Shown piece after piece: positions 3,309 through 20,856 of a DNA stretch of 64,000 nt. The DNA lies in contig MKTZ01000025.1 in assembly GCA_001898505.1 (NCBI GenBank), positions 62,001 to 126,000 of the forward strand. The letters run 5' to 3'. The notes under the pieces were generated by a model. It did no database searches, was not told the DNA's origin, and saw nothing but the letters and a program-made list of their open reading frames with translations. The stretch comes from Sphingobacteriales bacterium 50-39. GTDB taxonomy: Bacteria; Bacteroidota; Bacteroidia; Chitinophagales; Chitinophagaceae. A program made the translations under genes and the position numbers. Each line of letters begins with the position of its first letter. The first letter of the stretch is position 1.

Positions 3309-3339
3309 TTTGGTCATTCACTTTTCACGCTTAATTTTG
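3309..3339 (+). promoter_or_regulatory. Promoter of the hisGDC operon
   Basis: TTTG at 3309-3312 and TAATTTTG at 3332-3339 are separated by 19 nt, an exact match to the Bacteroidota housekeeping consensus (TTG, 17-23 nt, TAnnTTTG). The end of the -7 box is only 9 nt before the leader-peptide ATG at 3349, so the transcript should begin within a few nucleotides of that start codon. Confidence 0.8.
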
Positions 3340-3348
3340 GGCCTCGTT

Positions 3349-3423
3349 ATGAAAATCAGAACGCACCATCATCACCATCATTTTTTCTTACCGAATCATA
3401 TGTCCGGCGTTCGCCGGTGGTAG
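3349..3423 (+). CDS. hisL: Histidine operon leader peptide
   Basis: A 24-codon open frame (ATG 3349, TAG 3421-3423). Its residues 6-11 are six consecutive histidines (codons 3364-3381, both CAC and CAT), with a seventh His at residue 17. It lies between a strong promoter and a terminator hairpin, directly upstream of hisG. That is the arrangement of ribosome-mediated attenuation: low charged tRNA-His stalls the ribosome in the His run. An inverted repeat (CCGGCG at 3404-3409, CGCCGG at 3412-3417) lies between the His codons and the stop and could act as a polymerase pause hairpin. The peptide itself probably has no function. It is shorter than standard gene-calling thresholds and is likely to be missed by automatic annotation. 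Confidence 0.93.
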   Translation: MKIRTHHHHHHFFLPNHMSGVRRW

Positions 3424-3490
3424 GCCGGTGATGTTTTGTATATAAAACAACTTATTAAGGGGCTTACCAGAGGTAAGCCCCTAATTTTTT
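3419..3490 (+). terminator. His attenuator: terminator with competing antiterminator
   Basis: The terminator stem is GGGGCTTACC (3459-3468) with GGTAAGCCCC (3472-3481), loop AGA, followed by TAATTTTTT (3482-3490). The upstream segment GGTAGGCC (3419-3426) overlaps the leader stop codon and can pair with GGCTTACC (3461-3468): 8 bp with one G-U, which would break the terminator. A ribosome that finishes the leader covers 3419-3426, so the terminator forms; one stalled at the His codons leaves it free, so transcription continues into hisG. The pairing was read by eye, and its energetics were not calculated. Confidence 0.9.
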
Positions 3491-3597: not shown

Positions 3598-4452
3598 ATG
3601 AAGCTAAAAATCGCCATTCAAAAATCGGGTCGCCTGTATGACGACTCCGTAAAGCTCCTGAAAGATTGTGGTATCGATCTTAAGAACGGAGTAAACAAGC
3701 TAAAGACAGAAGCGGACAATTTCCCTATGGAGATCTATTTTCTCCGGGATGACGATATTCCTCAGTATGTCGAGGATGCGGTGGCCGACATCGGCATTGT
3801 AGGGGAGAATGTGTTGTACGAGAACAACAAGAAGGTGGACATCGTGGAGCACCTGGGGTTTGGCAAATGTCGTCTGTCGGTGGCAGTGGGCAGGAGCGAC
3901 CAATATACAGGTGTGGAATCCCTGCGGGGCAAAAGAATAGCCACTACATATCCGACCCTCGTGCGCCAGTTCCTGGATAAGAACAAGGTAGAAGCCGAGA
4001 TACATGAGATCAGCGGTTCCGTAGAGATCGCTCCCGGTATTGGACTGGCGCATGCCATCGTGGACCTGGTAAGTAGTGGTAGTACCCTGTTCATGAATGG
4101 GCTGAAAGAAGTGGAGACCGTCCTGAAGTCACAGGCTGTCCTTGTCCGGAACAGGGATCTGGATGCCGGACTGCAAGCCATTTTAGATAAATTCCTTTTC
4201 CGTATCCGGGCTGTAAAGCAGGCGAAGAATAATAAATATATCCTGTTGAATGCGCCGAACGACAAATTAAACGAGATTATCGGACTGCTGCCGGGCATGA
4301 AGAGCCCCACTGTGCTGCCATTGGCGCAGCCCGGCTGGAGCAGCGTTCACAGCGTACTGAACGAAAATGACTTTTGGGATATCATCGAGCGGTTGAGAGA
4401 TGCGGGTGCACAGGGCATCCTGGTAGTGCCGATAGAAAAAATGATCATTTAA
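3598..4452 (+). CDS. hisG: ATP phosphoribosyltransferase, long form
   Basis: The committed first step of histidine synthesis: ATP + PRPP gives phosphoribosyl-ATP. 284 residues, the long HisG form that carries its own C-terminal ACT-like regulatory domain (from about residue 205 to the end, including KNNKYILLNAP and IGLLPGMKSPTVLPL) and needs no HisZ. The catalytic domain begins MKLKIAIQKSGRLYDDS, and the PRPP-binding loop region is SSGSTLFMNG. In this class the C-terminal domain binds histidine for feedback inhibition, so the enzyme adds allosteric control to the transcriptional control by hisL. First structural gene after the attenuator; hisD follows 9 nt later. Confidence 0.97.
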   Translation: MKLKIAIQKSGRLYDDSVKLLKDCGIDLKNGVNKLKTEADNFPMEIYFLRDDDIPQYVEDAVADIGIVGENVLYENNKKVDIVEHLGFGKCRLSVAVGRSDQYTGVESLRGKRIATTYPTLVRQFLDKNKVEAEIHEISGSVEIAPGIGLAHAIVDLVSSGSTLFMNGLKEVETVLKSQAVLVRNRDLDAGLQAILDKFLFRIRAVKQAKNNKYILLNAPNDKLNEIIGLLPGMKSPTVLPLAQPGWSSVHSVLNENDFWDIIERLRDAGAQGILVVPIEKMII

Positions 4453-4461
4453 TATATCGAT

Positions 4462-5745
4462 ATGCAATTGATTGACATTCGCCATTTCACATCCATCTCC
4501 CCGGCACAGCGGCGGGAGTGGTTGTCGCGGCCCGTGCTGGATACTTCGATGCTGGAGCAGAAAGTAGCTGACATTCTTCGGACTGTCAGGGATGGCGGGG
4601 ACGAGGCTGTGCAGCATTTTACCCTGCAGTTCGATAAAGTAGCGCCGGAGCCATTGCAGGTCAGCGAAGAAGAGCTGGCGCAGGTGGAGGTTAGTGAGGC
4701 ATTGCGCTCGGCCATCCATCAGGCGCATCAGAATATCGAAGCCTTCCACCGTACACAGCATCAGGCAAGGGAGGCTGTGGAAACTATACCTGGTGTGCGT
4801 TGCTGGAGGAAGGCTGTCGCTATCGAGAAAGTGGGATTGTATATACCTGGTGGTACGGCCCCCTTATTTTCCACTTTGTTGATGTTAGGTATACCTGCGA
4901 AACTGGCGGGTTGTAAGGAGATCGTTCTGTGTTCGCCTCCTGATGCACAGGGCAGGCTGCATCCGGCCATCCTTTATGCGGCAAAGGTCGTAGGTGTTAC
5001 GAAGATATACAAGGCAGGCGGTGTGCAGGCCATCGGCGCTATGGCATATGGGACGGAGACCATACCTGCCGTCTATAAGATATTCGGCCCCGGTAATCAA
5101 TATGTCACCTGCGCCAAGCAGCTTATCCAAAGGGATGGAATTGCTATCGACATGCCTGCAGGCCCGAGTGAGGTCGCTGTTTATGCCGATGAAAATGCCA
5201 ATCCCGAATTTGTTGCGGCTGATCTGCTTTCACAGGCAGAGCATGGACCGGATAGCCAGGTGGTGCTCGTCTGTCTGTCCTCCAGGATGGCGGGGTTAGT
5301 GCAGGAGGCCGTTCAACGGCAATTGACGTTGCTGCCCCGTGCCGATGTGGCCGCCCGGGCGCTGGCTTCCAGCCGCCTGTTTATAGCCGGGGATGCCGGG
5401 CAGGCCATGGACCTGTTGAACGAATATGCTCCCGAACACCTGATACTGGCTTGTGACGATGCGGTGGAATTGGCAGGGAAAGTCGTAAACGCAGGCTCCG
5501 TTTTTATCGGGCATTATTCGCCGGAAAGTGTCGGCGATTATGCCAGCGGCACCAATCACGTGCTGCCCACCAATGGATATGCCAGGGCGTATAGCGGGGT
5601 AAGTCTCGATAGTTTTGTAAAAAAGATCACATTTCAACAGCTGACCCGGGAAGGCATTCAAGGCATCGGCCCTGCTGTCGTCGAGATGGCGGAGACCGAG
5701 GGGCTTCGGGCGCATGCGAACGCGGTCAGAGTGAGAATGTCATAG
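4462..5745 (+). CDS. hisD: Histidinol dehydrogenase
   Basis: Catalyses the last two oxidations, L-histidinol to L-histidine with two NAD+, using zinc. 427 residues, the normal length. Family motifs are all present: VGLYIPGGTAPLFSTLLML, FGPGNQYVTCAKQ, DMPAGPSEVAV, LLSQAEHGPDSQ (zinc/substrate Gln and His), APEHL, and SPESVGDYASGTNHVLPT near the C-terminus. It starts 9 nt after hisG in the same operon. Its stop codon overlaps a hairpin GTGCGC-TATG-GCGCAC at 5745-5760, between hisD and hisC. Confidence 0.97.
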   Translation: MQLIDIRHFTSISPAQRREWLSRPVLDTSMLEQKVADILRTVRDGGDEAVQHFTLQFDKVAPEPLQVSEEELAQVEVSEALRSAIHQAHQNIEAFHRTQHQAREAVETIPGVRCWRKAVAIEKVGLYIPGGTAPLFSTLLMLGIPAKLAGCKEIVLCSPPDAQGRLHPAILYAAKVVGVTKIYKAGGVQAIGAMAYGTETIPAVYKIFGPGNQYVTCAKQLIQRDGIAIDMPAGPSEVAVYADENANPEFVAADLLSQAEHGPDSQVVLVCLSSRMAGLVQEAVQRQLTLLPRADVAARALASSRLFIAGDAGQAMDLLNEYAPEHLILACDDAVELAGKVVNAGSVFIGHYSPESVGDYASGTNHVLPTNGYARAYSGVSLDSFVKKITFQQLTREGIQGIGPAVVEMAETEGLRAHANAVRVRMS

Positions 5746-5777: not shown

Positions 5778-6821
5778 ATGTTTCAACTGGACAAATTACT
5801 GAGGGATAATATCCGAAAGCTGGTACCCTATTCGTCTGCCAGGGATGAGTTCAAAGGAGAGGCACAGGTTTTTCTCGATGCCAATGAGAACAGTCTGGGG
5901 TCACCGCTGACCCGGTGGTACAACAGATATCCTGACCCGCTGCAATGGAAAGTAAAGGAAGCGCTCAGCCGCGTGAAGGGGATTGCTCCGCAGCACATCT
6001 TTCTTGGCAATGGCAGCGATGAGTGTATCGATATATTGTATCGGGCATTTTGCGAACCCGGTAAAGACAATGTCATTATCAATCCGCCAACCTATGGGAT
6101 GTATGAGGTCAGCGCGCATATCAACGATGTGGAAGTGCGCAGGGCCACCTTACTGGATGATTTTCAGCTGGACCTCGTGCACCTGGAGAACCTGGTGGAT
6201 GAGAATACCAAGATCATCTGGATATGCAGCCCGAACAACCCGACGGCCAACTCGATGAATCGTCAGGATGTGGAGGTCGTCCTGAATAATTTCCCCGGAC
6301 TGGTGGTGGTGGATGAAGCATATATTAATTTTTCCCGTCACAGGAGCTTTATCCAGGAGCTGACGGATTACCCCAATTTGGTAGTGATGCAGACGATGAG
6401 CAAAGCATGGGGGCTGGCAGGACTTAGGCTCGGTATGGCTTTTGCAAGTGAGGCTATTATAAATGTTTATAACAAAGTAAAACCTCCGTACAACATTAAT
6501 CAGGCCACTCAGGAACTGGCTTTAAAAGCATTGGAAGATACGGATCAGGTCAATGATATGATACGGGCCCTGGTGACCATGCGGGAACAGATGACCATTG
6601 AGCTGGCAGCGCTTCCTGTCGTCAAAAAAATATACCCCAGCGATGCCAATTTCCTGCTGGTGAAAGTCACCGATGCGAAAGCCGTCTATCAATATCTTTT
6701 GAACAAGGGGATCGTGGTCCGTGATCGCAGTAAGGTCGAGCTGTGTGAGGGTTGTTTGCGTATCACGGTGGGTACGGCATCGGAGAATCGTCAATTGCTG
6801 GAAGCGCTCGGCCAATTCTAA
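5778..6821 (+). CDS. hisC: Histidinol-phosphate aminotransferase
   Basis: PLP-dependent transfer of an amino group from glutamate to imidazole acetol-phosphate. 347 residues from the ATG at 5778; an alternative GTG at 5745 would add 11 residues inside the hairpin region and is less likely. The fold-I aminotransferase pattern is clear: GNGSDECIDILYRAF (phosphate-binding start), SPNNPTAN, VVDEAYINF, and the Schiff-base lysine in TMSKAWGLAGLRLG. Third gene of the hisGDC operon. The his cluster is interrupted after this gene: the next his gene (hisB) is 2.4 kb away, and no terminator is seen in the 65 nt before the sugar dehydrogenase. Confidence 0.96.
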   Translation: MFQLDKLLRDNIRKLVPYSSARDEFKGEAQVFLDANENSLGSPLTRWYNRYPDPLQWKVKEALSRVKGIAPQHIFLGNGSDECIDILYRAFCEPGKDNVIINPPTYGMYEVSAHINDVEVRRATLLDDFQLDLVHLENLVDENTKIIWICSPNNPTANSMNRQDVEVVLNNFPGLVVVDEAYINFSRHRSFIQELTDYPNLVVMQTMSKAWGLAGLRLGMAFASEAIINVYNKVKPPYNINQATQELALKALEDTDQVNDMIRALVTMREQMTIELAALPVVKKIYPSDANFLLVKVTDAKAVYQYLLNKGIVVRDRSKVELCEGCLRITVGTASENRQLLEALGQF

Positions 6822-8236: not shown

Positions 8237-8255
8237 AGGGCTGTGAATTTTTTTG

Positions 8256-8285
8256 GGGCCGGTGCGATAGTGCCGGCCCTTTTTT
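8256..8285 (+). terminator. Intrinsic terminator after the sugar dehydrogenase
   Basis: GGGCCGGTGC (8256-8265) pairs with GTGCCGGCCC (8270-8279) across a GATA loop (two wobble pairs), followed by six T's. It ends the rightward hisGDC-dehydrogenase transcript before the reverse-strand gene pair. Confidence 0.85.
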
Positions 8286-8298
8286 ATGTGCGGAATAG

Positions 8299-9226: not shown

Positions 9227-10366
9227 ATGAAAAGAGTTTTATTCATCGACCGCGACGGGACCCTCATCAACGAAGCTCCTCCTACCTACCAGATCGATAG
9301 TTTCGACAAGCTGGAATTCTATCCCAATATGTTTGAGTTCATGGGGCGGATAGCCCGGGAGATGGACTATGAGCTATTGATGGTGACCAACCAGGATGGC
9401 CTTGGGACAAAGGATTTCCCGGAAGATACGTTCTGGCCTGTGCAGCAGTTTATCATGAAGAGCCTGGAAAATGAAGGTATTTGTTTCAAGGACGTATACA
9501 TCGACAAAAGCTTTCCCAGGGACAATGCGCCTACCCGGAAGCCGGGCACGGGCATGCTGACCCGCTATATCGACAATCCCGAGTATGACCTGGCTAATTC
9601 ATTTGTCATCGGGGACAGGATCACCGACGTGCAGCTGGCGAAGAACCTGGGGTGCAAGGCCATCTGGCTGAACAATGAGCCGGGGCTGGGGGGCCGCGAG
9701 GTGAAGGATACGATGACGGAGCTGAATGAAGTGGTGGCGTTGGAGACGGGGGAATGGAGCAAGATATATGAGTTCCTGAAGCTGGGTCTGCGTCGTGTGA
9801 TCCATGAGCGCAATACCAGCGAGACGCAGATAAAGATCGAGCTGAATGTAGATGGCAGCGGCAAGGCTGCGATCTTCACGGGATTAGGCTTCTTCGATCA
9901 TATGCTGGAGCAGATAGCGCGGCATGGTAAGATGGACCTCACCATCCGTACGAATGGGGACCTCCATATCGACGAGCATCATACCATCGAGGATACGGGT
10001 ATCGCATTGGGAGAAGCGTTTGCGATGGCGCTGGCGGACAAGCGGGGGATGGAGCGGTATGGGTTTGCGTTGCCCATGGACGAGGCGGATGCCAAAGTGC
10101 TGATCGACTTTGGGGGAAGGAACTGGATCGTCTGGCATGCGGAGTTCAAACGGGAGCATATTGGGGAGATGCCGACCGAGATGTTCTTTCATTTCTTCAA
10201 ATCCTTTTCGGACGCTGCCAGGTGCAATCTGAATATTGAGTGCAGGGGGGAGAACGAGCATCATAAGATCGAGGCTATTTTCAAGGCTTTTGCAAAAGCC
10301 ATACGGATGGCTGTCAGGCGGGACCCACTGAGCAATTACCTGCCGAGCACGAAGGGGGTGCTGTAG
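9227..10366 (+). CDS. hisB: Bifunctional histidinol-phosphatase / IGP dehydratase
   Basis: A two-domain HisB of 379 residues. The N-terminal HAD phosphatase (residues 1-~165) has the nucleophile motif DRDGTLI near the start, the thiol/Lys motif region and [15 protein letters not shown]. It removes phosphate from histidinol-phosphate. The C-terminal imidazoleglycerol-phosphate dehydratase (residues ~185-379) has the two Mn-binding His clusters, [13 protein letters not shown]...[10 protein letters not shown] and [24 protein letters not shown]. The gene stands alone between the reverse-strand cargo and the trp leader. A TAGGTTTG -7 box at 9160-9167, with no convincing -33 element, may drive it. 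hisB ends 73 nt before the Trp leader peptide, so it is not under the Trp attenuator. Confidence 0.97.
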
Positions 10367-10400: not shown

Positions 10401-10432
10401 TTTGGAAAAGTGATTTTTGCGGGTCATATTTG
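10401..10432 (+). promoter_or_regulatory. Promoter of the trp-his operon
   Basis: TTTG (10401-10404), a 20-nt spacer, then CATATTTG (10425-10432), one mismatch to TAnnTTTG. Only 7 nt separate the -7 box from the leader ATG at 10440, so the mRNA should be leaderless or nearly so, as at hisL. Confidence 0.7.
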
Positions 10433-10439
10433 CCGTGCA

Positions 10440-10502
10440 ATGACAAAAAAGCTTATAAATAAACTGTGGTGGTGGCATACTAACTCCAAACGGGGCAAGT
10501 AA
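10440..10502 (+). CDS. trpL: Tryptophan operon leader peptide
   Basis: A 20-codon frame (ATG 10440, TAA 10500-10502) with three consecutive Trp codons, TGG at 10467-10475 (residues 10-12). Trp codons in tandem are rare in ordinary proteins. Position directly upstream of an attenuator hairpin and trpE identifies it as the sensing peptide: scarcity of charged tRNA-Trp stalls the ribosome here. It follows the promoter by 7 nt and is too short for routine gene finders. Confidence 0.93.
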   Translation: MTKKLINKLWWWHTNSKRGK

Positions 10503-10555
10503 TGCTATTACTACATGTATTACCATATTGGGCCCCGGTATACCGGGGCCTTTTT
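10491..10555 (+). terminator. Trp attenuator: terminator with competing antiterminator
   Basis: A perfect 20-bp palindrome at 10531-10550 (stem GGCCCCGG/CCGGGGCC) followed by TTTTT is an intrinsic terminator. CGGGGC at 10491-10496, inside the last codons of trpL, is exactly complementary to GCCCCG at 10532-10537, giving a 6-bp all-GC antiterminator. A small hairpin, AGTAAT-GCT-ATTACT (10498-10512), sits between the two strands. A ribosome reaching the TAA covers 10491-10496 and lets the terminator form; stalling at 10467-10475 leaves it available. Read by eye, no folding energies computed. Confidence 0.9.
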
Positions 10556-10578
10556 CATTCCAAGAATCGTTGAACGTC

Positions 10579-11997
10579 ATGAAAAAAATAGAGATCAAAA
10601 CGCATTGCCGGAAGCTGTTATCGGATATCTACACGCCTGTGGGTATCTACCTCCGGCTGCGGGACAGGTTCCGGGACACCATTCTGCTGGAAAGCACGGA
10701 TTATCATGTGGCCGAGAACAGCTATTCCTTTATCTGTATCAACGCCATCGCAGGCATCGAGATATCCGACACCCGGAACATCGAGTTCAAACTGCCGGGG
10801 CTGCCCCCTGAAAAGAAGCCATTGGGCAATCTGGCAGATACTCCCCAACTCTTGTGGGAATTCATGCAACGGTTTGACTCGAAGCCTTCTTCCGAGCGGC
10901 CGGTGAGGGCCGTGCAGGGGCTGTTTGGCTATACCACGTTCGACGCTGTACAATTCTTCGATACCATCAAGCTGAGTTCCAGCGAAGAGAGGGCGGGTAT
11001 ACCGCTGATGCGCTACCGGCTCTATCAATATGTCATAGCTATCAATCATTTCAAGGACGAGCTGTACATCTGCGAGAACCAGATCGCGGGGCTGGAATCG
11101 GAGATCGGGATCGTGGAATCCCTGATAAAGAGCAAAGATGTTCCTGTATATCCTTTCCGGGTCAAGGGCGAGGAGACCTCGAATCTAAAAGATGAGGAAT
11201 ATATCGAGATCGTAAAAAAAGGCATCAGGAGCTGTCACCGTGGGGATGTTTTTCAGATCGTGCTCAGCCGTCGTTTTCAGCAGGGATTTACCGGCGACGA
11301 GTTCAATGTATACAGGGCCCTGCGCAGCATCAATCCCTCGCCTTATCTCTTCTTTTTCGACTATGGCGATTACAAGCTGATGGGGTCTTCACCCGAGTCG
11401 CAGCTGATCCTGCAGAATGGGGAGGCCATTGTACATCCTATAGCTGGTACGTTCAAGCGGAGCGGCGACGATGGGATAGACAAAATGATGGCCGACAAGC
11501 TGTTAAAGGATGCAAAGGAAAATGCGGAGCATGTTATGCTGGTGGATCTGGCCCGCAACGATCTCAGCCGTAATTGTGACGAGGTCACCGTGGCGCAGTA
11601 CCGGCAGGTGCAATATTATTCTCATGTCATCCACCTCGTGAGCGAGGTTAGGGGAAAGCTACGGGATGGCTACAATCCATTCGAGCTGCTGGCCACTACT
11701 TTCCCTGCGGGTACGCTTAGCGGCGCCCCCAAGTTCAAGGCAATGGAGCTGATCGATGAATACGAGCCTACTACCCGGAGCTATTATGGAGGCTGTATCG
11801 GGTTCATGGGTTTTGATGGCAGCTGTAATCACGCGATCATGATCCGCAGCCTGCTGAGCAGGAACAATACCCTGATCTATCAGGCAGGCGCCGGTGTGGT
11901 AGCCGCCAGTCAGCCCGAGAGTGAGCTGCAGGAAGTAAATAACAAATTAGGAGCTTTGAAGAAAGCTATTTTGTTTGCGGAGGAAATAAGTCATTAA
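10579..11997 (+). CDS. trpE: Anthranilate synthase component I
   Basis: Converts chorismate to anthranilate with ammonia from TrpG. 472 residues from the ATG at 10579 (MKKIEIKTH). The frame is open to 10528, but that would begin inside the attenuator hairpin. The tryptophan-binding LLES motif for feedback inhibition is present near residue 37. Chorismate-binding motifs follow in the C-terminal half: GDVFQIVLSRRF, PIAGTFKRSGDD, HVMLVDLARNDLSR, FPAGTLSGAPKFKAMELID, and SYYGGCIGFMGFDGS. First structural gene after the Trp attenuator; trpG follows after 22 nt. Confidence 0.97.
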   Translation: MKKIEIKTHCRKLLSDIYTPVGIYLRLRDRFRDTILLESTDYHVAENSYSFICINAIAGIEISDTRNIEFKLPGLPPEKKPLGNLADTPQLLWEFMQRFDSKPSSERPVRAVQGLFGYTTFDAVQFFDTIKLSSSEERAGIPLMRYRLYQYVIAINHFKDELYICENQIAGLESEIGIVESLIKSKDVPVYPFRVKGEETSNLKDEEYIEIVKKGIRSCHRGDVFQIVLSRRFQQGFTGDEFNVYRALRSINPSPYLFFFDYGDYKLMGSSPESQLILQNGEAIVHPIAGTFKRSGDDGIDKMMADKLLKDAKENAEHVMLVDLARNDLSRNCDEVTVAQYRQVQYYSHVIHLVSEVRGKLRDGYNPFELLATTFPAGTLSGAPKFKAMELIDEYEPTTRSYYGGCIGFMGFDGSCNHAIMIRSLLSRNNTLIYQAGAGVVAASQPESELQEVNNKLGALKKAILFAEEISH

Positions 11998-12019
11998 TAA
12001 TTCTATAAAACTACATATA

Positions 12020-12616
12020 GTGGCCCGTATTCTTGTATTCGACAATTACGATTCATTCACCTATAATCTTGTGCACCTGGTGGAGAAGCTGATCCGTCAA
12101 CGGGTGGAAGTGCACCGCAATGACAAGCTGCCACTGGAGAAAGTAAAGGAGTATGATAAGATCATTCTTTCGCCGGGACCTGGTATCCCTGAAGAGGCCG
12201 GGCTGCTGTTGCCTCTTATAAGGGAATACGCCGCGTCGAAGTCTATTTTGGGAGTATGTCTGGGGCATCAGGCCATCGGGGAGGCATTCGGTGGCCGGCT
12301 GGTGAATCTCAGCACCGTATATCATGGGGTGTCGACCCCAGTGAAGATATTGCGGCCCTCGGAAAGAAATGGTGTAAAGAGAGATAATGACCTGTTCGAG
12401 GGGCTTCCAAACGAGATGGAAGTCGGCCGGTACCATAGCTGGGTCGTCAGCGAGGAAGGATTTCCGGCAGAGCTCGAGGTGACGGCAAGGGATGAGAAGA
12501 ATTATATCATGGCCCTGCGGCACAGGACGCTGGATGTGCAAGGGGTGCAATTCCATCCTGAGAGTGTGCTGACACCACAAGGCGAACAAATATTAAAAAA
12601 CTGGTTGAAAGCATAG
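12020..12616 (+). CDS. trpG: Anthranilate synthase component II (glutaminase)
   Basis: Class-I glutamine amidotransferase of 198 residues that supplies ammonia to TrpE. It starts at a GTG (12020). The oxyanion region is SPGPGIPEEAG. The nucleophile Cys lies in GVCLGHQAIGEAFGG and the catalytic His-Glu pair in VQFHPESVLTP. Same operon as trpE, 2 nt before trpD. As in many bacteria it could also serve aminodeoxychorismate synthase; nothing here decides that. Confidence 0.96.
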   Translation: MARILVFDNYDSFTYNLVHLVEKLIRQRVEVHRNDKLPLEKVKEYDKIILSPGPGIPEEAGLLLPLIREYAASKSILGVCLGHQAIGEAFGGRLVNLSTVYHGVSTPVKILRPSERNGVKRDNDLFEGLPNEMEVGRYHSWVVSEEGFPAELEVTARDEKNYIMALRHRTLDVQGVQFHPESVLTPQGEQILKNWLKA

Positions 12617-12618
12617 TT

Positions 12619-13611
12619 ATGAAGAAGATATTACAATACCTGTTTGAACACAAGACACTGACCAGGCCGCAGGCCCGGGAAGTGCTGACGAATATCGCCG
12701 GAGGCGCTTACAACGAGAGCGAGATCGCCGCCTTTATTACGGTGTTCCTCATGCGTAGCATCACGATCGATGAGCTGCAGGGTTTTCGCGACGCGCTCCT
12801 GGACCTTTGCGTCCGGGTGGATCTGAATGGACATGACGCCATCGATATTGTCGGTACGGGAGGGGATGGGAAAAATACATTCAATATATCCACGCTGTCG
12901 TGTTTCATAGTAGCCGGGACGGGCCAGAAAGTGGCCAAACATGGAAACTACGGCGCCAGCACCATCAGCGGAGCTTCCAATGTCATGGAGTCGCTGGGAT
13001 ATAAGTTCAAGAATGATGCAGGCGCCTTGAAAAAGGAGATAGATCAAGCCGGTATCTGTTTCCTGCATGCCCCCCTATTCCATCCCGCCCTCAAGACCGT
13101 GGGGCCTATCCGGAAGAACCTGGGTGTGCGGACATTCTTCAATATGCTGGGTCCCATGGTAAATCCCGCCAGCCCGAAATTCCAGCTGGTAGGGGTCTAT
13201 AATCTGGAAATGGCCAGGATATACAATTACCTGCTGCAGCAGACGGAAGGATATTACACTATTATCCATGGCCTGGACGGATATGATGAGATATCCCTGA
13301 CCGGTGATACGAAGGTGATCACCCAAAAAGGAGAAAAGATCATGACACCCGAAGAATTGGGCAAACGAATGGTAAATGCTTCCGATATTTATGGGGGCAA
13401 TTCGGTGGACGAGGCGGCGAAAATATTTACAAAAATATTGAAGGTTGAAGGCAGCTGGGCGCAGAATGCCGTGGTATTGGCGAATGCCGCCATGGCCCTT
13501 TATTCCACGGGTAATTATGGGAAATACGACGATGCATATGCTGCGGCGGTGGATAGCCTGGAGAGCGGAAAAGCCTATGCGGCATTGAATACATTGATAT
13601 CCTTACAATAA
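12619..13611 (+). CDS. trpD: Anthranilate phosphoribosyltransferase
   Basis: Transfers phosphoribose from PRPP to anthranilate. 330 residues, full length. Glycine-rich PRPP-binding motif GTGGDGKNTFNIST, then KHGNYGASTISGASNVMESLGY, NLGVRTFFNMLGPMVNPA and GLDGYDEISLTG, all characteristic of TrpD. It begins 2 nt after trpG. It consumes PRPP, as HisG does, which is one metabolic reason the two pathways could be co-regulated. Confidence 0.97.
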   Translation: MKKILQYLFEHKTLTRPQAREVLTNIAGGAYNESEIAAFITVFLMRSITIDELQGFRDALLDLCVRVDLNGHDAIDIVGTGGDGKNTFNISTLSCFIVAGTGQKVAKHGNYGASTISGASNVMESLGYKFKNDAGALKKEIDQAGICFLHAPLFHPALKTVGPIRKNLGVRTFFNMLGPMVNPASPKFQLVGVYNLEMARIYNYLLQQTEGYYTIIHGLDGYDEISLTGDTKVITQKGEKIMTPEELGKRMVNASDIYGGNSVDEAAKIFTKILKVEGSWAQNAVVLANAAMALYSTGNYGKYDDAYAAAVDSLESGKAYAALNTLISLQ

Positions 13612-13640
13612 GCGCCTGTGATGGGCGGAGGAATGAACAA

Positions 13641-14429
13641 ATGAACATACTGGATAAAATAATCGAGCACAAAAGAGTGGAAGTTGCGCAACGAAAGGAA
13701 GCCGTTCCCGTGGCACAGCTGGAGAGCAGTCCTTTGTTCACCCGGCGGGTGCTGTCGTTGAAGCAATTTCTGACAGACCCGTCCAGAACGGGTATCATTG
13801 CGGAGTTTAAAAGAAGAAGCCCTTCAAAGGGGGTGATCAACGACCAGGTGGATGTGGCGACCGTTACAAAAGGATATGCGGCGGCGGGGGCATCCTGTCT
13901 GTCCGTGTTGACCGACCCGGTCTTTTTTGGCGGCAGCTCGGACGATCTGCAGCGGGCGCGTGTCAACGAGATCCCTATCCTGCGAAAGGATTTTATTATC
14001 GATGAATACCAGATCATCGAGGCAAAGGCCATCGGCGCCGATGTGATCTTGCTGATAGCGGCCTGCCTGACGCCGGAAGAAGTGCAGCGACTGGCGGAGT
14101 TTGCCCGGGGGCTGGGGTTGGAAGTGCTGCTGGAGATACATAACGAGGATGAACTGGAGCATATCTGCGAAGCAACGGAAATGGTGGGGGTGAACAACCG
14201 GGACCTGAAGACGTTCACCGTAGATATACAGCGGAGTATCGATCTCAGTAAGAAGATCCCGGAGGGTAAGATCCTTGTTGCGGAGAGCGGGATCAGCAAG
14301 ATAGAAACCATCCTCCACATGAAGGACGCCGGCTTTACCGGATTTCTTATCGGGGAGAATTTTATGAAAGAAAAGGACCCGGGGGCAGCTTTTGGAGCAT
14401 TCGTAGCTGAACTTAAAGAAAAACCATGA
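13641..14429 (+). CDS. trpC: Indole-3-glycerol-phosphate synthase
   Basis: Ring closure of CdRP to indole-3-glycerol phosphate. 262 residues with TIM-barrel motifs: IIAEFKRRSPSKG (catalytic Lys), SVLTDPVFFGGS, ILRKDFIIDEYQI, LLIAACL, VGVNNRDLKTF and VAESGI. It starts 29 nt after trpD, and its last 4 nt overlap trpF (ATGA), pointing to translational coupling. TrpC and TrpF are separate proteins here, not fused as in E. coli. Confidence 0.97.
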   Translation: MNILDKIIEHKRVEVAQRKEAVPVAQLESSPLFTRRVLSLKQFLTDPSRTGIIAEFKRRSPSKGVINDQVDVATVTKGYAAAGASCLSVLTDPVFFGGSSDDLQRARVNEIPILRKDFIIDEYQIIEAKAIGADVILLIAACLTPEEVQRLAEFARGLGLEVLLEIHNEDELEHICEATEMVGVNNRDLKTFTVDIQRSIDLSKKIPEGKILVAESGISKIETILHMKDAGFTGFLIGENFMKEKDPGAAFGAFVAELKEKP

Positions 14430-15067
14430 GAGTAAAAGTCTGCGGAATGACCGAGATCGACCAGGTCAGGCAACTCGACGCCATGGGGGTGGATTTTGCG
14501 GGGTTTATATTTTACCCCAGATCGCCCCGATATGTAGTTCGTCACTTGACGGGTGACCAGGTCAAACGGGCGAAGCTGCGGCTGGGTAAGGTGGGTGTCT
14601 TTGTCAATGCCACGTATGACGATGTCATGAAGCAGGTGGACAGCTATGGTCTGGATATGGTGCAGCTGCATGGGGATGAGACCCCACGGTTTTGCGAGCA
14701 GCTATCCAACTATATCACCGTGATAAAGGTCTTCCGGCTGGGTGAGGATGATCCTATCGACTGGCTGGTCCGCCCCTACCAGGAGTCCTGTGATATGTTC
14801 CTTTTCGACACAGAGGGGGCGGGATATGGGGGAACGGGGAAAAAATTCAACTGGAATACCCTGAAGTCGGCCCATATCGATAAACTGTTCTTTTTGAGCG
14901 GAGGCATCGAGCCGGGTGATGCAGAAAAACTGAAAGCATTCTCCAAGGAGCCCGTTGCAAAAAAGATGTTTTCCATCGACATCAACAGCAAGTTCGAAAC
15001 GAGCGCAGGAGTAAAGGACCTGAAAAAAATAAGAACGATGCTGGATAACCTTAAGAATAATATATGA
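14426..15067 (+). CDS. trpF: Phosphoribosylanthranilate isomerase
   Basis: Amadori rearrangement of PRA to CdRP. 213 residues, TIM barrel. The catalytic Cys is in VKVCGM at the N-terminus, with [43 protein letters not shown] (catalytic Asp region) and FLSGGI. It overlaps trpC upstream and trpB downstream by 4 nt each, so the trpCFBA genes are strung together by ATGA junctions. Confidence 0.96.
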
Positions 15068-16278
15068 GTACCATTCAACAAAAGGCTGTTTCTTCCTATA
15101 CCCCGGACAAACAGGGGTATTATGGAAAATTCGGAGGGGCCTATATCCCGGAGATGCTTTATCCCAATGTGGAAGAGCTGCGTACCCGCTATTTGGAGAT
15201 CATGCATGAAGCTTCTTTCCAAAAGGAGTATCAGTCATTGCTGAAAGACTATGTAGGGCGTCCTTCACCCTTGTACCTGGCCAGAAGGCTCAGCAACAAG
15301 TACAATACAGAGATATTCCTCAAGCGGGAGGACCTCAATCATACCGGGGCGCATAAGATCAACAATTCCATAGGACAGATACTTTTAGCACAGCGGCTGG
15401 GTAAGAAGAGGATCATTGCCGAGACGGGCGCAGGACAGCATGGAGTGGCCACAGCCACTGTGTGTGCGTTGAAGGGAATGGAGTGCATCGTTTATATGGG
15501 ATCGAAAGACATCGAGCGGCAAGCGCCAAACGTGGCTCGCATGAAGATGCTGGGCGCCAAGGTAGTGCCTGCTACCAGCGGTAGTCAGACCCTGAAGGAT
15601 GCTACCAACGAAGCCATACGGGACTGGATCAACAACCCGACAGATACCCATTATATCATTGGCAGCGTGGTAGGACCGCACCCTTATCCCGACATGGTTG
15701 CCCGTTTCCAAAGTGTGATCAGCGAGGAGATCAGGGCGCAGTTAAAGGAGAAGACAGGGAGCGAGCTGCCTACGCATGTGATAGCATGTGTGGGTGGAGG
15801 TAGCAATGCCGCCGGAGCTTTTTATCATTTCCTGGACGAGCTCAGTGTAGAGCTGATAGCCGTGGAGGCCGCGGGACATGGGGTACATAGCGGGCAAAGC
15901 GCCGCCACCACGCAATTGGGCAAACCGGGTGTCCTGCATGGCAGCAAGAGCCTGGTCATGCAGACAGAAGACGGGCAGGTGGTAGAACCTCACAGCATTT
16001 CGGCGGGCCTGGATTATCCTGGCATCGGTCCGTTGCACGCGCATTTATATGAGAGTGGCCGGGCTACCTTTCTCAGCGCGACAGACGATGAGTCGTTGAA
16101 GGCGGCGTTCGAGCTTACCCAACTGGAGGGGATCATACCCGCGCTGGAGTCGGCGCATGCGCTGGCAGGGCTGGATCAATTACAATTAAATGAAAAGGAT
16201 ACGGTAGTCCTCTGTCTCAGCGGCAGGGGTGATAAAGATATGGCGACCTATATGCGGGCTATGGAGGGAAAATTATGA
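15064..16278 (+). CDS. trpB: Tryptophan synthase beta chain
   Basis: Condenses indole with serine using PLP. 404 residues, TrpB1 type. PLP lysine in [22 protein letters not shown] phosphate/substrate loop in [16 protein letters not shown], and [12 protein letters not shown] binding the cofactor phosphate. Overlaps trpF and trpA by 4 nt each, in line with the one-to-one alpha/beta complex. Confidence 0.98.
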
Positions 16279-17045
16279 GCAGAATAACGGATCTATTCAC
16301 AAGAAAGAATCGGCGGGTATTGAATGTCTATTGTACGGCAGGATATCCGCAACTGAACAGCACGTTGGAAGTGATGAAGGCGTTACAGGACAACGGAGCG
16401 GACATGATCGAGCTGGGCATGCCATACAGCGACCCTTTGGCGGATGGCCCCGTGATACAGGCCAGCAGCATGAAGGCATTGGAGAACGGAATGACCATTG
16501 CTGTTCTCTTCGATCAATTAAAAAGCCTTCGTAGCACCATCCAGCTGCCTGTATTGTTGATGGGCTATATGAACCCTGTGCTGCAATATGGGTTTGAAAG
16601 ATTTTGCGCTGCTGCGGCGGCCGTGGGCGTAGACGGGCTGATCCTGCCTGATCTGCCGATATACGAATTCGAGACGGAATATGGCCCCATCATACGCAAG
16701 TATGGACTGGACTTTGTTTTTCTTGTCACACCAGAGACCTCTTCCGAGCGCATCGCCAAGGTGGATTCGCTGAGCTCGGGATTTTTGTATGCCGTCTCAT
16801 CCTCCTCCACGACAGGCAAGGATAAGGATATGGGGGGACAGCAGGCCTATTTCGAGAAACTTCAAAGCATGCAATTGCGCAATCCGGTGCTGGTGGGATT
16901 TGGAATAAAGGACAAGACCACGTTCGAGACGACATGCCGGTATACCAACGGCGCTATCATCGGGACGGCGTATATAAAGGCACTGGATAATACAAAAGAT
17001 ATCAACGCAGCAACTTCCACATTTTTAAAACCTATCCTGGGATGA
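16275..17045 (+). CDS. trpA: Tryptophan synthase alpha chain
   Basis: Cleaves indole-3-glycerol phosphate to indole and G3P and channels indole to TrpB. 256 residues. The catalytic Glu is in [16 protein letters not shown] and the catalytic Asp in [20 protein letters not shown] forms the phosphate loop region. The gene overlaps hisH by 4 nt (17042-17045, ATGA). This is a direct junction between the trp and his pathways, so hisH translation is probably coupled to trpA. Confidence 0.97.
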
Positions 17046-17644
17046 GCACTGTTATTGTCAAATACAACGCGGGCAATATCCAGTCAGTCCTGTATGCACT
17101 GGAACGCATCGGGCAGCAGGCTGTCGTGACGGACGATCCCGGGCAGATACGTGGAGCGGATAAGGTGATCTTTCCCGGAGTGGGGGAGGCCAGCACTGCC
17201 ATGGAGTATTTAAAGGGCAGGGGGCTGGATGTATTGCTGAGGGAATTAAAGCAGCCTGTGTTGGGCATTTGTCTGGGCATGCAGCTCATGTGCAGCTACA
17301 GTGAAGAGAATGACACGACCTGTCTGGGTATTTTCGAGGAGAAGGTCAAGAAGTTCGCTGGTCTGGGAGAGAATGGCGAAAAGCTGAAGGTCCCGCAAAT
17401 AGGATGGAATAATATCTATGACCTAAAGACCCCGCTGCTGGAGGGATTGCCGGAAAACAGCTTTTGTTATTTCGTACATGGGTATTATGCGGATCTGGGG
17501 AAGCATACGATAGCCACGACTCGTTATGGTCAGCCGTATAGTTCGGGTCTGCACAGGGATAATTTTTACGGTGTCCAGTTCCATCCGGAGAAGTCGGCGA
17601 CAGTGGGCGAGCGGATATTAAAAAATTTTTTAGAGAACGTTTAA
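17042..17644 (+). CDS. hisH: Imidazole glycerol phosphate synthase glutaminase subunit
   Basis: Releases ammonia from glutamine for HisF. 200 residues, class-I amidotransferase. Nucleophile in GICLGMQLMCSYS, catalytic His-Glu in VQFHPEKSATVGE, PGVGEAS oxyanion region near residue 47. The ATG lies inside the end of trpA. Being downstream of trpL with no visible terminator or new promoter in between, hisH and the following three his genes are expected to be transcribed with trp. Confidence 0.97.
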   Translation: MSTVIVKYNAGNIQSVLYALERIGQQAVVTDDPGQIRGADKVIFPGVGEASTAMEYLKGRGLDVLLRELKQPVLGICLGMQLMCSYSEENDTTCLGIFEEKVKKFAGLGENGEKLKVPQIGWNNIYDLKTPLLEGLPENSFCYFVHGYYADLGKHTIATTRYGQPYSSGLHRDNFYGVQFHPEKSATVGERILKNFLENV

Positions 17645-17653
17645 ATATCAGGA

Positions 17654-18385
17654 ATGGAGATCATACCTGCAATAGATATCATAGATGGTAAGTGTGTGCG
17701 TCTTACTCAAGGCGACTATGCACAGAAAAAGATATACAACGAGCATCCTTTGGAAGTAGCTCGTGCCTTTGAAGATGCGGGTCTTATCCGGCTGCATCTG
17801 GTGGATCTGGATGGAGCAAAGGCGGGCGCTGTCAGGAACTGGAAAGTGTTGGAAACGCTGGCGGGAAGGACTAGCCTGGTCATCGACTTCGGAGGTGGGA
17901 TAAAGAGATCGGAGGATGTGGACATCGTATTCAACTCGGGGGCGGCGCTGGCTACCATTGGCAGCCTGGCTGTCAAGGACCCGGCGACTTTTGCCGGCTG
18001 GTTGCAGCAGTATGGCGCGGACAAATTCCTGCTGGGAGCTGACGTGAAGAATGAGAAGATAGCGGTGGGGGGATGGCTGGAGACCACGGATAAGTGGATC
18101 TATGATTTTATAGAAGAATATACAGGGCGTGGTGTCCGGCAGCTGTTCTGTACGGATGTCAGCAAGGATGGATTGCTGCAGGGGCCTTCTCTGGAATTAT
18201 ACAGGAATATCGTACAGAAATTCCCGGAGCTGCATTTTATCGCCAGTGGCGGAGTTAGTGAACTGGATGACGTATTTCGCCTGGAGGACATCGGCTGCAA
18301 GGGAGTCATCATCGGGAAGGCCATTTATGAAGGGCGTATCACATTGGATGAGCTGACGAAAATTGCGTTAACATCAAAAAAATAA
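17654..18385 (+). CDS. hisA: ProFAR isomerase
   Basis: Isomerises ProFAR to PRFAR (an Amadori rearrangement like TrpF). 243 residues. IPAIDIIDGKCVRLTQGDY carries the first catalytic Asp, with DFGGGIKRSEDV, LGADV, CTDVSKDGLLQGPS (second catalytic Asp) and ASGGVSELDDV. Nine nt after hisH; hisF starts 6 nt after it. A separate trpF exists, so it is a dedicated HisA and not the bifunctional PriA. Confidence 0.97.
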   Translation: MEIIPAIDIIDGKCVRLTQGDYAQKKIYNEHPLEVARAFEDAGLIRLHLVDLDGAKAGAVRNWKVLETLAGRTSLVIDFGGGIKRSEDVDIVFNSGAALATIGSLAVKDPATFAGWLQQYGADKFLLGADVKNEKIAVGGWLETTDKWIYDFIEEYTGRGVRQLFCTDVSKDGLLQGPSLELYRNIVQKFPELHFIASGGVSELDDVFRLEDIGCKGVIIGKAIYEGRITLDELTKIALTSKK

Positions 18386-18391
18386 AGGATC

Positions 18392-19150
18392 GTGCTGACG
18401 AAAAGAATTATACCCTGTCTGGATATCAAGGATGGCCGGACTGTCAAGGGGGTGAATTTTGAAAATATCCGTGATGCTGGCGACCCTGTGGAACTGGGTG
18501 CATTGTATGCCCAACAGGGCGCCGATGAGCTGGTGTTCCTGGATATCACCGCGACGAATGAGAAAAGAAAGACGCTGCGTGAGCTGGTCAACCGCATCGC
18601 ACATCATATTAACATACCCTTCACCGTGGGTGGCGGCATCAGCAGTGTAGAGGATGTGAGCCTGCTGTTGCAGAATGGGGCCGACAAAATATCCGTCAAT
18701 ACATCTGCGTACCGTCGTCCGGAGCTGGTTGGCGAGCTGGCAAAGGAATTCGGTAGTCAGTGTGTGGTGCTGGCCATCGACACAAGGCAGGAGGAAGACG
18801 GAGAATGGTATGTTTATCTCAATGGTGGAAGAGTGAGGACGGATACCCGTTGCGTCGACTGGGCGCGCCAGGCAGTAGACCTGGGAGCAGGAGAGATATT
18901 GCTGACCTCCATGAATCATGACGGCACGAAGAAGGGGTTTGCTATGGATATTACCCGGACGCTTGCGGAATCGCTACCTGTGCCCATCATTGCTTCGGGC
19001 GGTGGAGGCACTATGCCGCATTTCGTAAACATACTGGGAGAAGGCAAGGCTGATGCAGCGCTGGCTGCCAGCATCTTTCACTTTAAGGAAATTTCAATTC
19101 CGGAATTAAAAGGATATTTGCAGGATCAACATATTGCAGTAAGAATTTAA
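18392..19150 (+). CDS. hisF: Imidazole glycerol phosphate synthase cyclase subunit
   Basis: Builds the imidazole ring from PRFAR and ammonia from HisH, releasing AICAR. 252 residues, GTG start at 18392. Half-barrel repeats typical of His[16 protein letters not shown] (catalytic Asp) and LAIDTR (second catalytic Asp), with [26 protein letters not shown] and [12 protein letters not shown]. The usual MDRDGT segment reads MNHDGT here, a mild variant. Six nt after hisA. Confidence 0.97.
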
Positions 19151-19152
19151 TT

Positions 19153-19752
19153 ATGAACGTCGATTTTAAAAAATACGGAGATGGGCTGGTACCAGCCATC
19201 ATACAGGATGCTGTTACACAGAAAGTGCTGATGCTGGGATTTATGAACCAGGAAGCGCTGGATAAGACAAAGCAGGAAGGGAAGGTCACTTTTTTCAGCA
19301 GGAGCAAGGGGCGGCTGTGGACCAAGGGGGAGGAGAGCGGTAACTATTTGCTTATGAAGAGCATTGCGCTGGATTGTGACCGGGATACCCTTTTGATCAA
19401 GGCGGAGCCCCTGGGGCCCGTATGTCATACGGGGGCCGACACCTGCTGGGATGAAAAGAACCAACACGAAGACTTTCTTAGCAGCCTGGAGGAGATCATT
19501 CAGCAGCGGCGGGAGCAGGCCGATCCATCCGGATCGTATGTAGCAGGGCTTTTTCATAAGGGAATCAATAAGATAGCTCAAAAAGTAGGGGAGGAGGCCA
19601 TAGAGCTGGTCATAGAGGCGAAGGATCATGATGAAAAGCTGTTCCTGAACGAGGCGGCCGACTTACTTTTTCATTATTTGATACTCCTGAACGCAAAAGG
19701 CTTTAATTTGCAGGACGTCACCGACGTGCTAAAAGCAAGACATAAAAAATAA
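19153..19752 (+). CDS. hisIE: Bifunctional PRA-CH / PRA-PH
   Basis: Second and third steps of histidine synthesis. 199 residues. The N-terminal cyclohydrolase HisI (to about residue 105) has FFSRSKGRLWTKGEESGN, DCDRDTLL and CHTGADTCW (Zn/Mg ligands). The C-terminal pyrophosphohydrolase HisE (about 108-199) has QKVGEEAIELVIEA and NEAADLLFHYLILL. This completes the histidine pathway: G, D, C, B, H, A, F and IE are all in the window. The next gene begins 6 nt later. Confidence 0.97.
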   Translation: MNVDFKKYGDGLVPAIIQDAVTQKVLMLGFMNQEALDKTKQEGKVTFFSRSKGRLWTKGEESGNYLLMKSIALDCDRDTLLIKAEPLGPVCHTGADTCWDEKNQHEDFLSSLEEIIQQRREQADPSGSYVAGLFHKGINKIAQKVGEEAIELVIEAKDHDEKLFLNEAADLLFHYLILLNAKGFNLQDVTDVLKARHKK

Positions 19753-19758
19753 TTAAAT

Positions 19759-20856
19759 ATGAAGAGATTCTGCTGGGTGCTGGGTTTGATGCCGTTGTTG
19801 TCCTTCGGTCAGGAAAAAAAGGATACTCAATTTACTATTACGGGAGATATTAAAGGTTTGGAGGATAGCGCGCTGGTATTTCTGACGGATGTGTCCAATC
19901 CTACCGATACGGTGGCGAAGGCCCCTGCAAGGAGCGGACATTTTGTGTTGAACGGGCATGTCGCAGAGCCGAATCTTTTTGAGCTGAATTTGGGGAGCGC
20001 CAAGACGAAGGCCCCTCTTTTTATGGGTAACGACAATATCTCCGTCAGCGGGTCACAGGAAGATCTCAAGGGCCTGGTGGCAAAGGGGTCGCCCTCCAAT
20101 GATGATTTTGTGGAGTTCCAAAAGGAATTCAATCCATATTTTACCCGTATCAACGGCGTGATGCAGCTGGCCAACTCACCCGAAGGTATGAAGGTCAAGG
20201 ATTCTCTTTTTAAGATATACAAGCGGGTGGCGGACTCGACGATGAATGAACTGGATGCGTTTGTGGCGAACAAGCGTTCGTCTTATGTGTCGCCTTTTGT
20301 CATGGTGGTATTGAACCAGCTGTCCGAAGATGTGGGAAGGCAGCTAAAGAGATATAATAGTCTTGCTCCGGAGGTGCAGAAGGGATTTTACGGCCAATAC
20401 ATAAAAGGCAAGCTGGATGAAGCAAGCATTGGGGCTATTGGGACGGATGCGATGGATTTTACGCAGAGCGATACGTCCGGAAGAGCTATAAGTCTTTCTT
20501 CTTTCAAGGGTAAATATGTGCTATTGGATTTCTGGGCCAGCTGGTGTGGTCCCTGCCGTATGGAAAATCCCAATGTGGTCAGCATGTATAAAAAATTCAA
20601 GGGTAAGAATTTTACCGTGCTGGGTGTTTCGTTGGACAAGTCCAAAGAACCCTGGCTCAAGGCCATCAAGGACGATGGTCTCGCCTGGACGCAGGTGAGT
20701 GATCTGAAATACTGGTACAATGAGGCGGCCTTAAAATATCATATACAAAGTATTCCACAGAATTTTCTGATAGATCCCAACGGCAAAATTGTTGGAAAGA
20801 ATCTTCGCGGGCCCGACCTCCAGGCAAAGCTTTGCGAATTATTGGGCTGTAATTAG
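19759..20856 (+). CDS. DUF4369/TlpA-like thiol-disulfide oxidoreductase
   Basis: 365 residues with an N-terminal signal peptide (MKRFCWVLGLMPLLSFGQ). Residues ~25-120 look like the DUF4369 beta domain (FTITGDIKGLEDSALVFL). The C-terminal ~140 residues are a TlpA/ResA-type thioredoxin fold with active site WCGPC (Cys263 and Cys266) and the cis-Pro segment YHIQSIPQNFLIDPNG. Such periplasmic proteins reduce or exchange disulfides, often in cytochrome maturation or envelope redox. It lies 6 nt after hisIE and shares its transcript, but no link to amino-acid synthesis is known. Confidence 0.88.
   Translation: MKRFCWVLGLMPLLSFGQEKKDTQFTITGDIKGLEDSALVFLTDVSNPTDTVAKAPARSGHFVLNGHVAEPNLFELNLGSAKTKAPLFMGNDNISVSGSQEDLKGLVAKGSPSNDDFVEFQKEFNPYFTRINGVMQLANSPEGMKVKDSLFKIYKRVADSTMNELDAFVANKRSSYVSPFVMVVLNQLSEDVGRQLKRYNSLAPEVQKGFYGQYIKGKLDEASIGAIGTDAMDFTQSDTSGRAISLSSFKGKYVLLDFWASWCGPCRMENPNVVSMYKKFKGKNFTVLGVSLDKSKEPWLKAIKDDGLAWTQVSDLKYWYNEAALKYHIQSIPQNFLIDPNGKIVGKNLRGPDLQAKLCELLGCN

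Follow-up and report, generated by a model that had tools for sequence, protein, structure and literature searches.

Many Chitinophagaceae have a trp operon inside their his operon, with hisHAFIE probably behind a tryptophan attenuator

The trp operon of Sphingobacteriales bacterium 50-39, a member of the Chitinophagaceae, lies inside its his operon, between hisB and hisH. We have analyzed a stretch of 64,000 nt of this genome (GenBank assembly GCA_001898505.1, contig MKTZ01000025.1, positions 62,001 to 126,000), which we call the window. The genome, labelled G000, has 7.9 Mb, and the window is on its contig 25. The nested arrangement is widespread in the family and is also found outside it. 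We consider it quite likely that a trp operon, complete with promoter and leader, has become nested in an ancestral hisGDCBHAFIE operon, and that hisHAFIE, together with a tlpA gene, is the distal part of the trp transcript, under ribosome-mediated tryptophan attenuation. Co-transcription of hisHAFIE behind the trp attenuator appears well supported, half of the histidine pathway is probably expressed along with the tryptophan genes, and histidine synthesis may thus be under a physiological two-input control.

Genes have been assigned to families from open reading frame (ORF) calls and NCBIfam models with curated cut-offs. From trpE onwards, the window contains:

10579..11997, + strand: trpE (best match TIGR00564, 405 bits, below the cut-off of 518)
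12020..12616, + strand: trpG (TIGR00566, above cut-off)
12619..13611, + strand: trpD (TIGR01245, above cut-off)
13641..14429, + strand: trpC (NF001377, above cut-off)
14426..15067, + strand: trpF (best match NF002298, 161 bits, below the cut-off of 215)
15064..16278, + strand: trpB (TIGR00263, above cut-off)
16275..17045, + strand: trpA (TIGR00262, above cut-off)
17042..17644, + strand: hisH (TIGR01855, 199 bits, cut-off 105)
17654..18385, + strand: hisA (TIGR00007, 238 bits, cut-off 229)
18392..19150, + strand: hisF (TIGR00735, 348 bits, cut-off 295)
19153..19752, + strand: hisIE (NF002747, 274 bits, cut-off 187)
19759..20856, + strand: TlpA-like thioredoxin-fold protein with DUF4369, 6 bp after hisIE

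Nine of the eleven genes of the trp-his unit reach their cut-offs; TrpE and TrpF score below them, with their own family still as the best match. As an earlier, sequence-only reading of this DNA had proposed, trpE-G-D-C-F-B-A continues unbroken into hisH-A-F-IE: The trpA stop and the hisH start overlap as ATGA at 17042-17045. The same overlap is found at trpC/trpF, trpF/trpB and trpB/trpA, and the gaps that follow are very short (hisH-hisA 9 bp, hisA-hisF 6 bp, hisF-hisIE 2 bp). That reading also took hisHAFIE to be attached to the trp operon. They do appear to belong to the same unit, but the his genes are not a mere appendage: Relatives show the whole trp operon between hisB and hisH. Two genes are absent from that reading. 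One is hisB, number four in the ancestral hisGDCB block, whose end is separated from the trp leader by 73 bp in the window. The other is the TlpA-like gene, probably the last of the trp-his unit; among relatives, the hisI-tlpA gap is 100 bp or less at 77 of 80 junctions.

Many relatives share this arrangement. We have compared 80 named HisF loci (the best 80 of 511), among them near relatives such as Flavitalea sp. BT771 and Puia dinghuensis, and trpA is directly upstream of hisH on the same strand in 72 of them. Six of the other eight loci are cut by contig ends, L056 has an intact his operon and L059 is without hisH in the 10 kb upstream. Taking the nearest ATG as the start of hisH, the distance from trpA in the 72 loci is 30 bp or less in 44 and 100 bp or less in 65, with a maximum of 560 bp; the exact ATGA is found in 5.

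A survey of gene order in the family, suggested by the sequence-only reading, covers 60 genomes from 59 genera and bears out the fusion. Both trpA and hisH are found in 44 of these genomes, and they are fused in 33. Among the unfused ones, ten have hisG 3.2–3.7 kb before hisH and trpA elsewhere, while G065 has hisC-B-HAFI together and trp on another contig. Of the 33 fused genomes, 11 have hisG on the strand of hisH and 10.3–14.5 kb upstream of it. We could locate trpE in 21 of the fused genomes, on the same contig and 4–8 kb before trpA in 19 of these. Contig ends interrupt the unit in G031. The gene order read out is hisG-D-C-(a glucose/sorbosone dehydrogenase-like gene in some)-B-trpEGDCFBA-hisHAFIE, mostly followed by tlpA. 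Bacteroidota also have a compact hisGDCBHAFI(E) operon, which we see in ten unfused genomes of the family and in L056. Its his genes and their order are the same; in the nested arrangement the complete trp operon separates hisB from hisH. A recent attachment of hisHAFIE, peculiar to the genome of the window, is ruled out by this wide occurrence.

To look outside the family we have searched 119 genomes of the class. At the thresholds used, TrpA is found in 37 and HisH in 71. Both are present in 31 genomes from outside the family, and a reading of the lists gives two in which they are near each other: G150 has trp-aroF-phenylalanine hydroxylase-hisHAFI, and G269 has hisGDCB-trp-aroF-hisHAF. Related arrangements thus exist in two other families. 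In the order of G150, 40 of 59 genomes have TrpE and HisH, and the link is found only in G150 and its congener G309. The stretches in G150 (L263) and G269 (L265) have a DAHP synthase gene after trpA and before hisH, and the former also has a phenylalanine 4-monooxygenase gene; aromatic and his genes are thus found in one stretch.

The short region between hisB and trpE contains a putative attenuator:

10401..10432, + strand: trp leader promoter, TTTG-N20-CATATTTG, one mismatch to the consensus
10440..10502, + strand: trp leader peptide MTKKLINKLWWWHTNSKRGK, 20 amino acids, with WWWH (Trp codons 10467-10475, His codon 10476-10478)
10491..10496, + strand: proposed antiterminator strand CGGGGC, inside the leader ORF (Arg-Gly codons), complement of GCCCCG in the 5' arm of the terminator
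10530..10551, + strand: intrinsic terminator of the trp attenuator, followed by TTTT

An ORF with tandem Trp codons is thus found upstream of trpE, with a terminator between it and trpE. A distance of 15 nt separates the last Trp codon from the CGGGGC strand, which ends 3 nt ahead of the stop codon, a placement judged by position and complementarity, with weak covariation. When charged Trp-tRNA is short, the ribosome would stall at WWW and CGGGGC, 15 nt further on, would stay free. It could then pair with GCCCCG, the terminator would be blocked and the polymerase would read from trpE through hisIE. With plentiful tryptophan, a ribosome at the stop codon would cover CGGGGC and the terminator would form. 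The shared attenuated transcript would imply that HisH, HisA, HisF and HisIE are made together with the Trp enzymes. The gene order, the leader, the complementary strands and the terminator come from the sequence and its comparison with relatives, and from them we infer the switching of the RNA and any effect on histidine flux.

Relatives have similar leaders. We have collected 71 distinct leaders from the family, 59 fused and 12 unfused. A loose rule finds the terminator in 66 of them, with picks in L021 and L218 that look wrong. At least five bases of the terminator 5' arm are complementary to a stretch which starts 11–18 nt past the last Trp codon in 49 of these 66 leaders, at 13–16 nt in 44. 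A clear case of co-change is L215, with CGAGGC and GCCTCG. An alignment of 35 leaders (the named loci and the window, all of them fused, the most divergent leaders omitted) has invariant TGGTGGTGGCAT and GGGG. Some leaders are in another frame, with SSGVM for SxRGL, yet they retain CGGGG, which points to a constraint on the RNA. The leader of the window has a fold z score of -5.6.

The consensus of Bacteroidota promoters is TTTG-N18-21-TANNTTTG. All 55 of the relatives' leaders examined have a promoter site, with up to two mismatches, in the 60 bp ahead of the leader ATG. These sites bear out the consensus, and the -7 box ends 4–7 nt ahead of the ATG in 46 of the 55; in the window the trp leader ATG is 7 nt past this box. 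Such a short distance, also found in the his leader (9 nt), suggests that the leader peptides are probably translated from nearly leaderless RNA.

The first part of the his operon appears to have a sensor of its own:

3309..3339, + strand: his leader promoter, TTTG-N19-TAATTTTG, a perfect match to the consensus
3349..3423, + strand: his leader peptide MKIRTHHHHHHFFLPNHMSGVRRW, a small ORF upstream of hisG with HHHHHH
3458..3482, + strand: terminator stem-loop of the his attenuator, followed by a T run
3598..4452, + strand: hisG (TIGR00070, 192 bits, cut-off 76)
4462..5745, + strand: hisD (TIGR00069, 522 bits, cut-off 244)
5778..6821, + strand: hisC (TIGR01141, 368 bits, cut-off 277; start at ATG 5778, ORF listed from GTG 5745)
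9227..10366, + strand: hisB, a bifunctional HisNB (NF003937, 521 bits, cut-off 443)

The separate leader for hisG-D-C in the sequence-only reading is therefore found, as a peptide with a run of six His and its own terminator upstream of hisG. A peptide with a His run precedes hisG in 28 of 30 loci, window included, a count made with no shuffle control. The predicted arrangement would place hisGDC behind a His-sensing leader, with hisB between the two units, and the levels of HisG, HisD and HisC would be set by His-tRNA-dependent attenuation. HisG, the first enzyme, probably still sets histidine flux.

We have looked for promoter and terminator signals along the unit. The + strand of positions 1-20900 has consensus promoter sites with up to one mismatch at six start positions, against 2.6 in mononucleotide shuffles. 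They are in three places: the his leader, where the match is perfect, the trp leader and 8183. None of them is in trpA or at hisH. Sigma-70-type matches are near chance (17, with 14.3 expected). The relatives have been surveyed in 102 loci, with four genomes counted twice, by looking for the motif in the 300 bp upstream of each gene. It is found upstream of trpE in 46 of 57 loci (4.1 expected) and of hisG in 7 of 10 (0.9 expected), while hisB has none in 18 loci (0.7 expected). Terminators are found in the 220 bp upstream of trpE in 42 of 53 loci (0.8 expected) and at none of 90 trpA-hisH junctions (0.6 expected). The gap between trpA and hisH has a median of 18 bp, and it is 100 bp or less in 80 of 90 loci; several other junctions of the unit exceed 100 bp more often. 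The tight and conserved junctions, the lack of excess promoter or terminator signals between trpA and hisH in these surveys and the conservation of leader, antiterminator and terminator in relatives argue for one trp-his transcription unit.

Several observations weigh against a single attenuated unit. Some of them would favour the alternative that a separate promoter, located within trpA or at hisH, drives hisHAFIE independently of tryptophan. There is a poor promoter site, with two mismatches, inside trpA at 16528. The motif is in mild excess upstream of trpA (8 of 90 loci, 4.0 expected), trpB (12 of 79, 4.0 expected), trpC (7 of 81, 2.8 expected) and hisI (9 of 92, 3.9 expected), so that some relatives may have internal starts. 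The trpA-hisH junction is long in a few relatives: 403, 538 and 560 bp in L040, L070 and L041. An antisense tRNA-Gly gene in the gap of ten loci, described below, might also be taken in favour of this alternative. On the other hand, the motif of the trp and his leaders is found upstream of hisH in just 1 of 94 loci, with 3.3 expected by chance, and the 600 bp upstream of hisH have five small ORFs rich in His or Trp in these 94 loci, none of them convincing as a leader. We have thus rejected a separate His leader or promoter for hisH, since nothing beyond chance is found there, and we regard an independent promoter for hisHAFIE as improbable.

The remaining points concern the attenuator and the continuity of the unit. 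A mild excess of terminator-like signals is found at hisA-hisF (7 of 92 loci, 1.6 expected) and hisH-hisA (4 of 90, 1.4 expected). Fewer than five complementary bases are found in 17 of the 66 leaders with a terminator. Matched pairs of leader and terminator have 5.41 complementary bases, against 5.10 (standard deviation 0.11) in mismatched pairs, and 5 of 500 shuffles are as high; the strands are nearly constant, so that matched pairs barely exceed mismatched ones. The free fold of the window leader gives the terminator and a 1:2 hairpin, without the antiterminator. The leader was not found in one fused locus, L031, nor in three outgroup loci. Finally, G069 is an exception in gene order, with trpE-B and trpA-hisHAFI-tlpA on different contigs, and no trpB in the 7.7 kb examined upstream of trpA.

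Ten loci have a tRNA-Gly(CCC) gene, in antisense, between trpA and hisH: L023, L024, L025, L027, L029, L032, L035, L049, L050 and L055. They were picked because the junction sequence showed the gene. A GNAT acetyltransferase gene is found between hisH and hisA, in a gap of about 415 bp, in L215 (by Pfam) and in L006 (by eye). The window does not have it. Similar hisH-hisA gaps are also found in other loci, both fused and unfused.

hisHAFIE might be co-transcribed and yet be a neutral passenger of the trp transcript: Basal read-through would suffice, feedback on HisG and the his leader would by themselves govern histidine, and the gene order would be due to descent. We give this explanation somewhat less than an even chance. 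Several facts are in its favour. The spacing of an intact operon, with hisG 3.2–3.7 kb before hisH, is found in 13 of the 60 family genomes, ten of which also have trpA. In 22 of the 33 fused genomes the 25 kb upstream of hisH have no hisG on that contig and strand; G069 is one of these 22, and there hisGDC-B does precede trpE. The state has also changed repeatedly, as shown by the trees discussed below. Against a neutral passenger, the trpA-hisH junction stays tight while several other junctions are more often loose, and the His codon of the trp leader has been kept in fused lineages as strictly as its Trp codons.

The trees are quick ones, with the LG+G4 model. In the Trp tree, outgroup rows contain TrpE plus at most part of TrpD or TrpC, no single branch separates them from the rest and long branches are flagged. 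The fused rows G024, G032 and G071 branch off early in the family, at nodes that are partly unresolved, and unfused rows are found in several places, with 8–9 changes of state. A single clade with all the unfused genomes (ten rows) is rejected (approximately unbiased test, AU, p 6e-10), so the fusion state has changed repeatedly. In 10 of the 12 unfused trp loci of the family trpA is followed by tlpA, the gene which follows hisIE in fused genomes, and this suggests that the fusion dissolved repeatedly. G019 and G061 are the two loci without trpA-tlpA; their TrpE is far from the other trp genes. Repeated loss of hisHAFI between trpA and tlpA would be simpler than repeated insertion at one spot. 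In many members of the family we thus find two interleaved biosynthetic operons, each with its own sensor, and a link which has apparently been lost on several occasions, so that trpA is now beside tlpA. Fused and unfused relatives amount to a natural experiment on cross-pathway regulation between two pathways which consume PRPP.

There is partial conflict between the HisHAFI and Trp trees. A group of 14 rows from the Trp tree is rejected by the HisHAFI tree (p 1e-5), which does not reject G057 beside G055 (p 0.48); the Trp tree does not reject G045 and G057 held together (p 0.29). Horizontal replacement of his operons, partly supported by these comparisons, may have taken place. In the Trp tree, the trp genes of L261 and L262 (G088 and G168, from another order) group with the family member G058, which suggests a transfer of trp genes; no hisH match is found in the stretch examined.

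The trp leader also has an almost invariant His codon after the Trp run, which the sequence-only reading left aside. The residue in this position is H in 58 of the 59 distinct fused leaders of the family, the exception being G036 with Q, in 7 of the 12 unfused ones and in 4 of 23 outgroup leaders. In a wider set, H is found in 61 of 62 fused and 18 of 51 unfused leaders. On a TrpE tree with 113 rows there is 1 change among fused leaders (branch length 18.6) and 12 among unfused ones (27.6; binomial p 0.012). The number of changes in fused leaders is 1 for the H position, 2, 1 and 0 for the W positions and 10, 8 and 13 for the next three. The three fused genomes found outside the family also have H. 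The HTNS.RG tail is gone from the divergent fused leaders L216, L217, L218, L225 and L226, one of which has a single Trp left, and all five keep H.

These results might mean that the WWWH leader is bivalent: Shortage of either Trp-tRNA or His-tRNA would stall the ribosome and switch on trp-hisHAFIE, and selection would keep the His codon as long as his genes are downstream. Its near-invariance in fused leaders, where it changes as rarely as the Trp codons, the difference between fused and unfused leaders and the three genomes outside the family are all consistent with this, as is the position of the window His codon, which ends 12 nt ahead of CGGGGC. There are also arguments against it. Unfused leaders carry WWWH too, which rules out that this motif is exclusive to the fusion, and the fused G036 lacks it. 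Tree-corrected pairs are too few (3.2 same and 0 opposite, of 5; not significant). The codon is CAT in 56 of 58 cases, while six trp and his genes of the same loci use CAT in 71%, which hints at a constraint on nucleotides. When the Trp block is paired as well as possible with the sequence downstream of the stop codon, the His codon takes part in 29 of 58 fused leaders. The kept codon might well be due to RNA pairing or simply to descent, and we think that a bivalent leader is unlikely. If it were true, histidine synthesis would be under two attenuators, a purely His one for hisGDC and a Trp-or-His one for hisHAFIE. In any case, the WWWH leader offers a direct test of whether leader codons track the genes downstream.

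Both leader-peptide attenuation and the insertion of an operon in another one are known kinds of organization. The trpL and hisL leaders of Escherichia coli are Proteobacterial attenuators with tandem regulatory codons, alternative pairing and an intrinsic terminator. Our leaders share these features; they differ in their ATG, which is so near to the -7 box in most relatives that the peptide is probably made from near-leaderless RNA. The Rfam family RF01692 (Bacteroid-trp), a tryptophan peptide leader of Bacteroidota according to Rfam, is found upstream of trpE in the outgroup locus L162 (88.5 bits), the only match among six outgroup loci scanned. It has no match in the window, nor in the four family loci scanned, L156 (which is the window's own locus), L192, L211 and L212. 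In the window Rfam gives nothing at the gathering score, just two unrelated matches at E > 3, and no T-box match upstream of trpE or hisG. In the portion of Weinberg et al. 2010 drawn on here (PMC2864571), Bacteroid-trp is one row of a table.

The trp supraoperon of Bacillus subtilis is the closest likeness in gene order: According to the portion of its description used here (PMC1173090), a trp operon is inserted in another biosynthetic operon, the aro operon, forming one larger unit controlled by TRAP. In our case the interleaving is seen in the gene order, and the single transcript is predicted from it and from the signals described above. As far as that portion of the source goes, the two systems differ in their host, aromatic there and his here, and in their control, TRAP there and a proposed leader peptide here. 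The hisHb of that supraoperon codes for an aromatic aminotransferase and should not be confused with the HisH amidotransferase. We have found no account of the his-trp arrangement in Bacteroidota in the open-access literature searched, whose reach excludes the likeliest source, Xie et al. 2003.

Some minor features should also be mentioned. In the window, hisB is set apart from hisGDC by a convergent DUF6934 gene and a hairpin with a T run (8254-8290). A glucose/sorbosone dehydrogenase-like gene (6887-8236) follows hisC; several relatives retain it between hisC and hisB, and it is also found in the his locus of the unfused G065. The hisA gene is the sole strong HisA match in its genome. It does not qualify as the bifunctional HisA/TrpF enzyme PriA: TIGR01919 gives 143 bits, with a cut-off of 306, while TIGR00007 is above its cut-off, and a separate TrpF-like gene is present. 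The genome of the window has a second HisH/HisF-like pair, in L093 (contig C12), which is 34–39% identical and has no hisA or hisI match in the surrounding 20 kb. We take it to be perhaps a pair for the modification of surface sugars.

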